The position numbers and the translations under genes are program-made. 64,000 bases of DNA from Octadecabacter sp. (GTDB lineage: Bacteria > Pseudomonadota > Alphaproteobacteria > Rhodobacterales > Rhodobacteraceae), in NCBI GenBank assembly GCA_028825445.1, contig JAPKAD010000005.1, forward strand, positions 1-64,000. The letters run 5' to 3'. Below are positions 32,067 through 36,332 of the stretch, piece after piece (within the stretch, counting starts at the first letter, position 1; the number at the start of each line of letters is the position of its first letter). The notes under the pieces are model-generated. The model had not been told where the DNA came from. It made no database searches and was given only the letters and a program-made list of their open reading frames with translations.

Positions 32067-33398
32067 TTAATCTTCTTCGAGTGCTTCAACTGCTTTCTGT
32101 AGGTCGTCTTTGCTGACTTCTTTTTCAGTCATAGAAGCAACTTCTAGAATGTGATCAACAACTTTGTCTTCAAACAGAGGTGCACGGATCTGCTGCTGCA
32201 TCTGAGGATTTTTCTGAACAAATTCAAAAAACTGACGTGCTTGATCGCCATACTGACGTGCTTGATTCATCACTGCTTGAGTAAATTCGGCATCAGTTAC
32301 TTGAATTTCAGCTTTCTGACCGATTTCAGCCAACAGCAAACCAAGCCTTACGCGGCGATCTGCTAACTTTGTATGCTCTTCAGTGGTCTCAATCTCCGGA
32401 TGATCGTGGCCTTCAACTTCAGGGTTGTCCTCATGCCATAATTGGTGCGCAATCTGGCCTGCTTCAGCTTCAACCAAAGATGGTGGAAGTTCGAATGAAA
32501 CCATCTTGTCTAGTTCATCAAGAAGAGCTCGTTTTGTAACTGCACGAGCCGCGCCAGAATACTCTTCTTCAAGTTTTGATGTGATTTGACCCTTTAAGCC
32601 TGCAAGATCCTCAGCACCAAACTGTTTTGCCATTTCATCGTCAATCTCTGATGTTTTTGGTTCTTTGACATTTAAAATTTTGCACTCGAACACAGCAACT
32701 TTGCCTGCAAGATGTTCAGCGTTGTAATCTGCAGGGAAAGTGACCTCAACTTTCTTGTCGTCGCCAGCTTTGACACCGATCAGACCTTCTTCGAAGCCTG
32801 GGATGAATTGACCAGACCCAAGTTCAAGTGCGTGCCCTTCAGCAGCACCGCCTTCGAATGGTTCCCCGTCTACTTTACCAAGAAAGTCAAAAATTACTTG
32901 ATCACCATCTTTGGCTTTTGAACCAGCCTTGCGATCTTCAAAGTTCTTTGCAGTATCTGCAAGGGACGTCAGTGCTTCTTGCACGGAGACATCGTCAGCT
33001 TTTACAACGAGTTTATCAAGTTTAATTTGAGAGAAATCAAGATCAGGAACTATTGGCAGTGCTTCGTAGGAAACGTTAACGACCACATCATCGCCTTCTT
33101 TCCATTCATCATTGGCCATCTTCATCTCAGGCTGCATCGCTGGGCGATCGCCAGACGTTTCCAGATGCGTGTTCATTGCACCGTCAACTGCTTCCTGCAT
33201 GGCTTCGCCAAGAACTTTAGGGCCAAACTGCTTTTTCATCATAGCCATGGGAACTTTACCCTTACGGAAGCCCTTCATTTCGACCTCAGGCTGCGCTTCT
33301 TTAAGCTTTTCAAGGACTTTAACGTCCAGCTCGGCAGCTGTGATTTTGATCTCGTAGCCGCGTTTGAGGCCGTCGTTCAGGGTTTCTTTGACCGTCAT
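32067..33398 (-). CDS. tig: Trigger factor (ribosome-bound chaperone, PPIase)
   Basis: A 443-residue chaperone acting at the peptide exit tunnel. The N-terminal ribosome-binding domain has the [16 protein letters not shown] signature (residues 44-59). A FKBP-like PPIase domain follows at about 150-245 ([37 protein letters not shown]). The helical C-terminal domain runs to an acidic end ([10 protein letters not shown]). AAAGGACG precedes the ATG. The gene lies immediately beyond the displaced tRNA-Leu 3' end, and in the ancestral order tRNA-Leu probably lay just upstream of tig. Confidence 0.97.
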
Positions 33399-33445: not shown

Positions 33446-33463
33446 TGGTGCGGGTGAAGGGAC
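33446..33463. repeat. Distal attachment-site copy of the tRNA-Leu 3' end
   Basis: An 18-base sequence starting TGGTGCGGGTGAAGG. It matches the 3' end of the tRNA-Leu gene (34834-34851) at 17 of 18 positions, in the same orientation, 1388 bases away. The single difference falls at tRNA position 72. Confidence 0.75.
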
Positions 33464-33648
33464 GCTTTTTTTATATAAAAGAGGTGCTTTGACGATCTCA
33501 TAGTAATAAGATCGTATTGGCACAAAATTTCTTCAAAAAGACCTTCATTATTCTCACCGCCCACTATGCCACTTGAGCTTGTTCTACAAGCTGCTGTTAC
33601 CCTCACCACTGTGCAAAAGTAGTACTGAAGGGGCCCAATCAAAAATAA

Positions 33649-33858
33649 GACCCCTTGATCACCCCATATGCCCAAGAACCCTTCTGCGATTCCGGTACAA
33701 CGTTCTATGTATCCTTGAATGAGGGCTTTAAGTTTGATGGTAGCGTTTAGTCAGACTCACATTTTGTGGTTGAGGCGCTGAGAGCAGTCTTTGATCCAAA
33801 AGGTGTATTTTTCCAGAGTGCCAAAAAAATCCCATCTTTCAGGTTTCAAAGAAATTAA
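33649..33858 (+). pseudogene. Coding relic inside the island, family unknown
   Basis: Plus-strand frame reading DPLITPYAQEPFCDSGTTFY, then VSLNEGFKFDGSV, a TAG at 33748, then SDSHFVVEALRAVFDPKGVF and on to a TAA at 33858. The residue pattern looks like real protein on both sides of the stop. I do not recognise the family. Confidence 0.4.
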
Positions 33859-34337
33859 AAGACAGTGTTTTTTTAGCTTTTTAAATCTCTTGCAACAAAA
33901 GCCTTCAAGGCAATAAACTTGACGGATTAACTTGATTTTCAAAATTACGAATGCACCGCTGAAAACGTGATTGTGATTATAGTGGACCTACTTTGGATCA
34001 GTCACACGTTAAATAAAAGCGTGTGACGACACCTGTAAGGTTATTGGTATGGTGATCAGAACCAGATATCGAAAATCACAAAAAAAATATCATCTTTGTT
34101 CGTGCAGCCACAGAAGCTTACGAGGGGCACCAACCCCAGTGCTTAACGTTACCACCCTGCACTTATGGACCTGTGTAACCGACAAAGGCCCACTTTCGAA
34201 ACTGGTGTGATTCAACCCACCATCGAAGTTTCACGCCTCATTAATTATGTCGATGAGGGCCAAATACAAAAAAACTAGATCACGACTAATTCTATAAAGT
34301 GGGAAATAGTCGTGTTTTCTACTTACCGGAAAAGTGA

Positions 34338-34717
34338 CCTAATGATCTGCTTCCATGACTTCGCGCAATCGTTGATCACGCCATTTAGGTATGTCCGTAG
34401 AAGTAACCGATCGTATTGGCATCTTAAATAGGTTGTCTCGCTGGAACTTAATAAATCGAATGGTTTCCCACCTAACGCCGCGCTTCGTCTGTGAAACTAT
34501 TCCAACGTACAAATCAAAAGCATCATCAACTGTGTGAGCTTCCGCAGTCTCTTCTTGGTGGTGACTTTAGTATGTTGCTCGATTCGCCCAGTCTTGGGCT
34601 TCACACTTGGCAGTCCAGACCTTTGGTTTACAAAAGCCATCAATATACATCATAGCCAGCCAACCCTTTTTTGTATGGAACTATGCTTACCATGAACGCT
34701 TCCGTGCGAAATGCCAT
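34338..34717 (-). pseudogene. N-terminal remnant of a tyrosine-recombinase integrase
   Basis: A start near 34717 gives a short arm-binding-like region (KKGWLAMMYIDGFCKPKVW, then AKCEAQDWANRATY), ending in TAA. A different frame resumes as AHTVDDAFDLYVGIVSQTKR, then GVRWETIRFIKFQRDNLFKM and TDIPKWRDQRLREV, and stops at 34338. The second part is typical of the SAM-like core-binding domain of phage-type integrases. The catalytic domain with the RHRY residues is absent. Frameshifts and truncation make it dead. It lies next to the 3' end of tRNA-Leu, the usual place for an island integrase. Confidence 0.65.
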
Positions 34718-34833
34718 GTGCTGTTTGTGCGTAACATCTGCCCATCTGTATAAATCTAGCACAATCATGATTTTGCTGAAGGATATTATTTATATGACGC
34801 AGAGCTCATTTTGAACACTGCGTCATAATAATC

Positions 34834-34851
34834 TGGTACGGGTGAAGGGAC
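34834..34851. repeat. Attachment-site copy within the tRNA-Leu 3' end
   Basis: An 18-base sequence starting TGGTACGGGTGAAGG that covers the CCA, discriminator, acceptor strand and part of the T arm. Its partner is at 33446-33463. Confidence 0.7.
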
Positions 34852-34918
34852 TCGAACCCCCACGCCTTGCGGCGCTTGGACCTAAACCAAGTGCGTCTAC
34901 CAATTCCGCCACACCCGC
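34834..34918 (-). tRNA. tRNA-Leu (UAG anticodon)
   Basis: 85 bases including an encoded CCA. The acceptor strand GCGGGTG pairs with CACCCGT, so pair 1-72 is G-U. The D arm contains GGAATTGGTAGACGC. The anticodon stem CTTGG/CCAAG encloses loop TTTAGGT, giving anticodon TAG for CUN leucine codons. The long variable arm (GCGCCGCAAGGCG) is typical of tRNA-Leu, and the T arm has GGTTCGAGTCC. The 3' end forms one side of the eroded integration site. The distal copy would restore a G-C first pair. Confidence 0.95.

Positions 34919-36332
<1,414 letters not shown>

Follow-up and report, generated by a model that had tools for sequence, protein, structure and literature searches.

The question raised by this locus is why a tRNA-Leu(UAG) gene and the trigger factor gene tig, which lie next to each other in most genus relatives, are here kept apart by a segment that carries a second copy of the tRNA 3' end on its far side. 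The window, i.e. the whole stretch of 64,000 nucleotides that was analysed, belongs to a draft Octadecabacter sp. genome (3.2 Mb, 135 contigs, 88% complete), and its tig is closest, within the named collection, to those of Octadecabacter or Pseudooctadecabacter. The parts of the locus that frame the problem are the following.

32067-33398, minus strand: tig (trigger factor), the host flank on the far side; an open frame named by similarity
33446-33463, minus strand: putative attachment-site core on the tig side, read as the displaced original 3' end of tRNA-Leu; 17/18 identical, with the ancestral C72
33464-34833, no strand: inserted segment between the repeats, 1,370 bp, absent from 18 genus relatives (DNA, E<=0.01)
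34834-34851, minus strand: putative second attachment-site core, the terminal 18 nt of tRNA-Leu(UAG)
34834-34918, minus strand: tRNA-Leu(UAG), anticodon TAG, found by ARAGORN
35952-36332, plus strand: glnB, the host flank on the tRNA side; an open frame named by similarity

The original prediction held that a tRNA-targeted integration had taken place here and had since collapsed. We consider this the best explanation, with a probability of about 93% that the locus is an integrative element reduced to 1.37 kb. The reading is supported by the repeat, an empty site in relatives, an integrase N-terminus at the spacing of its family, and occupied sites elsewhere.

The repeat was found exactly as predicted. 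The 3'-terminal 18 nt of tRNA-Leu recur at 33446-33463, 47 bp from tig, in the same orientation and with one mismatch. The tRNA gene itself is intact (ARAGORN; Rfam tRNA, 52.6 bits), so that an intact tRNA gene is accompanied by a displaced 3'-end fragment in direct orientation, as in a tRNA-targeted genomic island. Allowing up to 3 mismatches, the 18-mer has no third occurrence on either strand of the 64 kb, and 100 shuffles preserving dinucleotides gave zero matches at one mismatch or less. A repeat search extended the pair to 28 nt at 82% identity, and a pattern search with the tRNA-Leu(UAG) 3' region returned a single match in the own draft genome. The mismatch concerns tRNA position 72, which is C in the displaced copy and in each of the 17 genus loci covering the site, and U in the working tRNA of the window; U72 is also present in one locus of another genus (L103). 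The acceptor end of the working tRNA thus has a G1-U72 pair, compared to G1-C72 in 17/17 genus loci. The U72 fits an end brought in by the element, or a later mutation; under either origin the displaced copy would have retained the ancestral base.

Stretches upstream of tig were taken from 18 genus relatives, giving 19 loci; a tig relative is present in all 18 (74-95% identity), and glnB adjoins tRNA-Leu in the relatives' stretches. In two relatives, G003 and G009, whose tig protein is 95% identical to that of the window, the tig-side alignment stops at window position 33463 and the tRNA-side alignment starts at 34834, and both alignments meet on one shared set of 18 bases. The distance between tig and tRNA-Leu in these genomes is 48 bp, and judged by these alignments their junction is the empty site. 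One copy of the 18-mer, within 3 mismatches, was found in 17 of the 19 loci, which represent 17 of the 18 genomes, and two copies in none; the stretches L049 (the other half of G010) and L052 (G015) stop short of the site and were not counted. In 13 of these 17 loci the 18-mer is a tRNA end 22-123 bp from tig. The tRNA lies at 205 bp (L047), 422 bp (L048) and 1,444 bp (L040) in three others, and in L037, from G002, the tRNA beside tig is reduced to a fragment. At E<=0.01 the 18 relatives contain no DNA match to the inserted segment, so the segment between the repeats is missing from them; short local similarity exists to the G002 integrase relic described below (one stretch of 95 bp with 68% identity, another of 42 bp with 81%). 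The comparison of the tRNA-Leu to tig interval in close relatives, which had been proposed as a check, came out in favour of the prediction.

The 1.44-kb interval of G005 (L040) was considered as a parallel case and rejected, having a glycosyltransferase gene inside (L082 4584-5876) and a single copy of the tRNA end. On the other side of the tRNA, the window is very A+T-rich (24-34% G+C) at 35000-35900, between tRNA-Leu and glnB.

The N-terminal part of a tyrosine-recombinase integrase, also predicted next to the tRNA, was confirmed.

34342-34680, minus strand: N-terminal third of a tyrosine recombinase, reading away from the tRNA, with an in-frame stop at 34567-34569

The relic consists of two pieces in the same frame, 34342-34566 and 34570-34680, with one stop between them. 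A 321-position profile was constructed from 9 of the 10 family relatives of the relic, two of these nine being partial and L073 being excluded as truncated. When the six frames of the interval were searched with it, 34354-34674 on the minus strand matched profile positions 7-113 with E 1e-29, which corresponds to 107 codons with one stop and no frameshift. The longer piece, of 75 aa, also matches integrases by tblastn, and the similarity that a translated search was to reveal is therefore real. Relatives of this piece occur in 10 of 294 other family genomes, 3 plasmid records and 12 phage records; 14 of these 15 plasmid and phage records are annotated as integrase and one carries no annotation. 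A full-length relative matches PF00589. The relic pieces alone were not recognized by Pfam, PHROGs or NCBIfam (best PHROG E-values 0.15 and 0.25), and a scan of viral contigs with the relic gave zero confirmed cases. What is present is thus an N-terminal DNA-binding part related to known integrases. Of the catalytic domain (PF00589) there is no trace in the six frames of the interval, and the remaining two thirds of the integrase were not found. Because this domain is missing from all six frames, the relic could not be an active enzyme. With profile positions 7-113 of 321 and one stop the integrase is not intact, and for this reason the element is classified as a remnant and not as an island.

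The integrase family to which the relic belongs is found mainly beside tRNA-Leu genes. In ten family loci, tRNA-Leu is the neighbor in seven (GAG in three, UAA in two, UAG and CAG in one each), tRNA-Thr occurs at two (at one of them 2.3 kb away), and one stretch is without a tRNA. The distance from the start of the RWE motif to the tRNA 3' end is 361 nt in the window. The comparison covered ten other loci, eight of the family (all but L071 and L074) and two of G002; nine of them gave 346-377 nt, and L068, which has a different residue at this place, gave no value. A second tRNA end of at least 11 nt was sought beyond the tRNA at eight related loci, a search in which shuffled sequences reached 12 nt. 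An exact 20-nt repeat closes the element of G276 after 31.1 kb, and an 18-nt repeat that of G267 after 17.1 kb. No closing repeat was present within 34-40 kb in G235, G156, G056 and the GAG site of G002, nor in the 9 kb scanned of G303, and at the UAG site of G002 the scan met the tRNA itself only. In G031 a tRNA-Leu(UAG) beside glnB precedes a 340-codon open integrase frame; a 14-nt part of the tRNA end is repeated 11.6 kb further on, and tig starts 46 kb away. The elements of G276, at tRNA-Leu(UAA), and G267, at tRNA-Leu(CAG), share with the window the integrase family, the distance between tRNA and integrase, and repeats of 18-20 nt of the tRNA 3' end. However, their integrase frames are open, they are far longer, and they use other tRNA-Leu isoacceptors.

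Adjacency of tRNA-Leu and tig is widespread in the family. Of 80 named tig loci searched with ARAGORN, 28 have a co-oriented tRNA-Leu(UAG) 19-253 bp upstream, and in another 14 it lies at 0.8-5.6 kb; 27 have no tRNA-Leu(UAG) in 6 kb, and 11 have less than 6 kb of upstream sequence. In the 14 longer intervals a second tRNA end of at least 11 nt is absent from the 400 bp before tig, and one of them (L130) has an integrase-like stretch (E 3e-5). For this reason interval length by itself proves nothing, and the interval can grow by routes other than integration at the tRNA end. L113 and L130 were considered as further sites and set aside, having merely 10-11 nt of tRNA end near tig, which is too little to count.

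The full island at the same site that would support the prediction is present in Thalassobium sp. R2A62 (L135), between tRNA-end repeats. In this genome an exact 19-nt tRNA end lies 27 bp from tig with no tRNA-Leu within 6 kb, and an intact tRNA-Leu(UAG) is found 8,057 bp before the displaced end. The island (8.06 kb) that follows the tRNA encodes a 287-aa tyrosine recombinase (PF00589, E 1.6e-12) and contains Sel1-repeat, YbjQ and transposase genes. It resembles the locus in the window in insertion site, in exact repeats of the tRNA end and in the recombinase next to the tRNA. It differs in that cargo is present and that the recombinase was not found with the integrase family of the window, which gave a distant match elsewhere in that genome only. 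Because the search missed this recombinase, the island shows use of the site, not use by the window's own type of element.

In the rest of the insert, some 880 bp (33464-34340) have no convincing relative, and searches against plasmid and phage DNA were empty; this part is assigned to the element by position only. Two features can be pointed out.

33751-33855, plus strand: open stretch of 35 residues, NrdJ-like, a possible scrap of cargo
34788-34832, minus strand: inverted repeat directly 3' of the tRNA, fold z -6.95, with 0/200 shuffles as good

Residues 2-30 of the open stretch are similar (45-61% identity) to the C-terminal part of NrdJ, the class II ribonucleotide reductase, and the stretch may be a scrap of cargo. 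Matches at E<=0.01 occur in 131 of 149 genomes because the enzyme is common. The phage match is weak (Sulfitobacter phage phiCB2047-B, E 0.06), and searches with family models gave no match. The own genome has a separate full-length class II ribonucleotide reductase frame of 753 aa on contig C113. As to cargo, this one NrdJ-like stretch of 28 residues was found and nothing else in the insert was convincing. The inverted repeat has a 42-bp counterpart at 81% identity beside the G002 relic and may be a terminator of the tRNA or a binding site of the integrase. Searches with nine pieces of the debris returned TSP_1 from Pfam (E 0.044, below its cut-off) and phrog_17918 from PHROG (E 1.6e-4 over 15 residues), neither of which is believed. 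For the piece at 34147-34275, neither 148 other genomes of the family nor plasmids yielded a relative at E<=0.01. A match to phage DNA and a believable PHROG match are both absent from the pieces, and too little is left to separate phage from island.

A further variant of the site is found in the sister genome G002. Beside tig (L037, oriented 2377-2470; about 2829226 on G002:C2) it retains the terminal 19 nt of the tRNA 3' end. These are followed by an unrelated 71-nt sequence in place of the tRNA body, by a few bases from the tRNA 5' end and by some 97 bp that normally flank the tRNA; the 71-nt sequence gave no meaningful match to the stretches with which it was compared. An exact match to 23 nt of the tRNA end occurs once in G002, at C2:3423526, and belongs to an intact tRNA-Leu(UAG) 594 kb away (C2:3423524; L075 9525-9609), the only one found in this genome, which adjoins a related integrase that is split by a frameshift and cut short. 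A second copy of this integrase (91% alike across 1,005 bp, tRNA included) is located at tRNA-Leu(GAG) (L177 3708-4695; about 1704211 on C2), so that one integrase lineage appears to use two Leu tRNAs in this genome. The glnA gene of G002 is at yet another place. It seems that an essential tRNA gene in G002 changed place together with the end of an element. That elements with this integrase family use tRNA-Leu genes and also lead to their replacement is a tentative idea, which we regard as rather unlikely to hold. Many transposable elements and pseudogenes have been described in both polar strains (PMC3646047), in a paper whose main text does not contain the word tRNA.

In view of the above, three other explanations should be weighed. 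The 18-nt repeat could be the last trace of a second, tandem tRNA-Leu gene, with the integrase scrap stemming from an unrelated event. By itself, a displaced tRNA 3' end would be indistinguishable from such a trace, and the tRNA-Leu beside tig in G002 truly retains no more than 19 nt at its 3' end and a few bases of the 5' end. However, in the stretches taken, two copies occur in none of the 17 genus relatives covering the site, the distance between tRNA and integrase is the usual one for this integrase family, and complete elements are closed by repeats of the same extent, which leaves this origin very improbable. We give the same low weight to insertion of a small non-autonomous element of about 1.4 kb that had its integrase truncated from the start and lost nothing later. 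The well-kept repeats (17/18) and an integrase piece that is free of frameshifts and has a single stop over 107 codons would be in line with such an element, but a second copy is absent from the own genome, the 18 genus relatives contain no DNA match, and related elements with findable ends measure 17 and 31 kb. A chance repeat or an assembly error might be suspected in a draft genome of 135 contigs that is 88% complete. Yet shuffling gave 0/100 matches, the repeat ends exactly where the alignments of the relatives meet, and the contig runs through with both host flanks; this possibility is negligible.

The preferred reading, a collapsed integration at the tRNA, would involve the following steps. 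An integrative element, either a genomic island or a prophage, encoding a tyrosine recombinase would have recombined with the 3' end of tRNA-Leu(UAG), which is normally situated directly upstream of tig. Integration would have pushed the 3' end that the tRNA originally had, today at 33446-33463, towards tig; the end completing the present tRNA would have come from the element. One or more later deletions would then have taken practically all cargo together with the catalytic portion of the integrase, two thirds of its length, so that 1.37 kb is left. We infer the order of events, the original size of the element and its inability to move by itself. The original prediction further stated that the cargo is gone and that attachment sites and integrase scraps remain. 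The latter part stands, both cores and the integrase N-terminus being seen, and the cargo loss we infer because two thirds of the integrase are missing and related elements are large.

The locus provides a clean record of late island decay, in which both attachment-site cores are readable and one core change is informative (C72 in the displaced copy, U72 in the working tRNA). Within one family, empty, occupied and collapsed versions of the same site can be compared, and the tRNA-Leu(UAG)/tig junction has been entered more than once, by different recombinases. The insertion separates a tRNA and tig that are co-oriented at 19-253 bp in 28/80 family loci. No literature title or abstract on this insertion site was found. 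The remnant in the window is well supported and ordinary in kind; the process is textbook, and general understanding is not changed by it. It is established that tyrosine integrases insert elements at tRNA genes, regenerating the gene and displacing a fragment of it (PMC4383910). As in the tRNA-targeted islands that Islander maps (PMC4383910), a regenerated tRNA and a displaced fragment mark the ends and a tyrosine integrase gene lies beside the tRNA; unlike in those islands, the integrase in the window is truncated and 1.37 kb is left.
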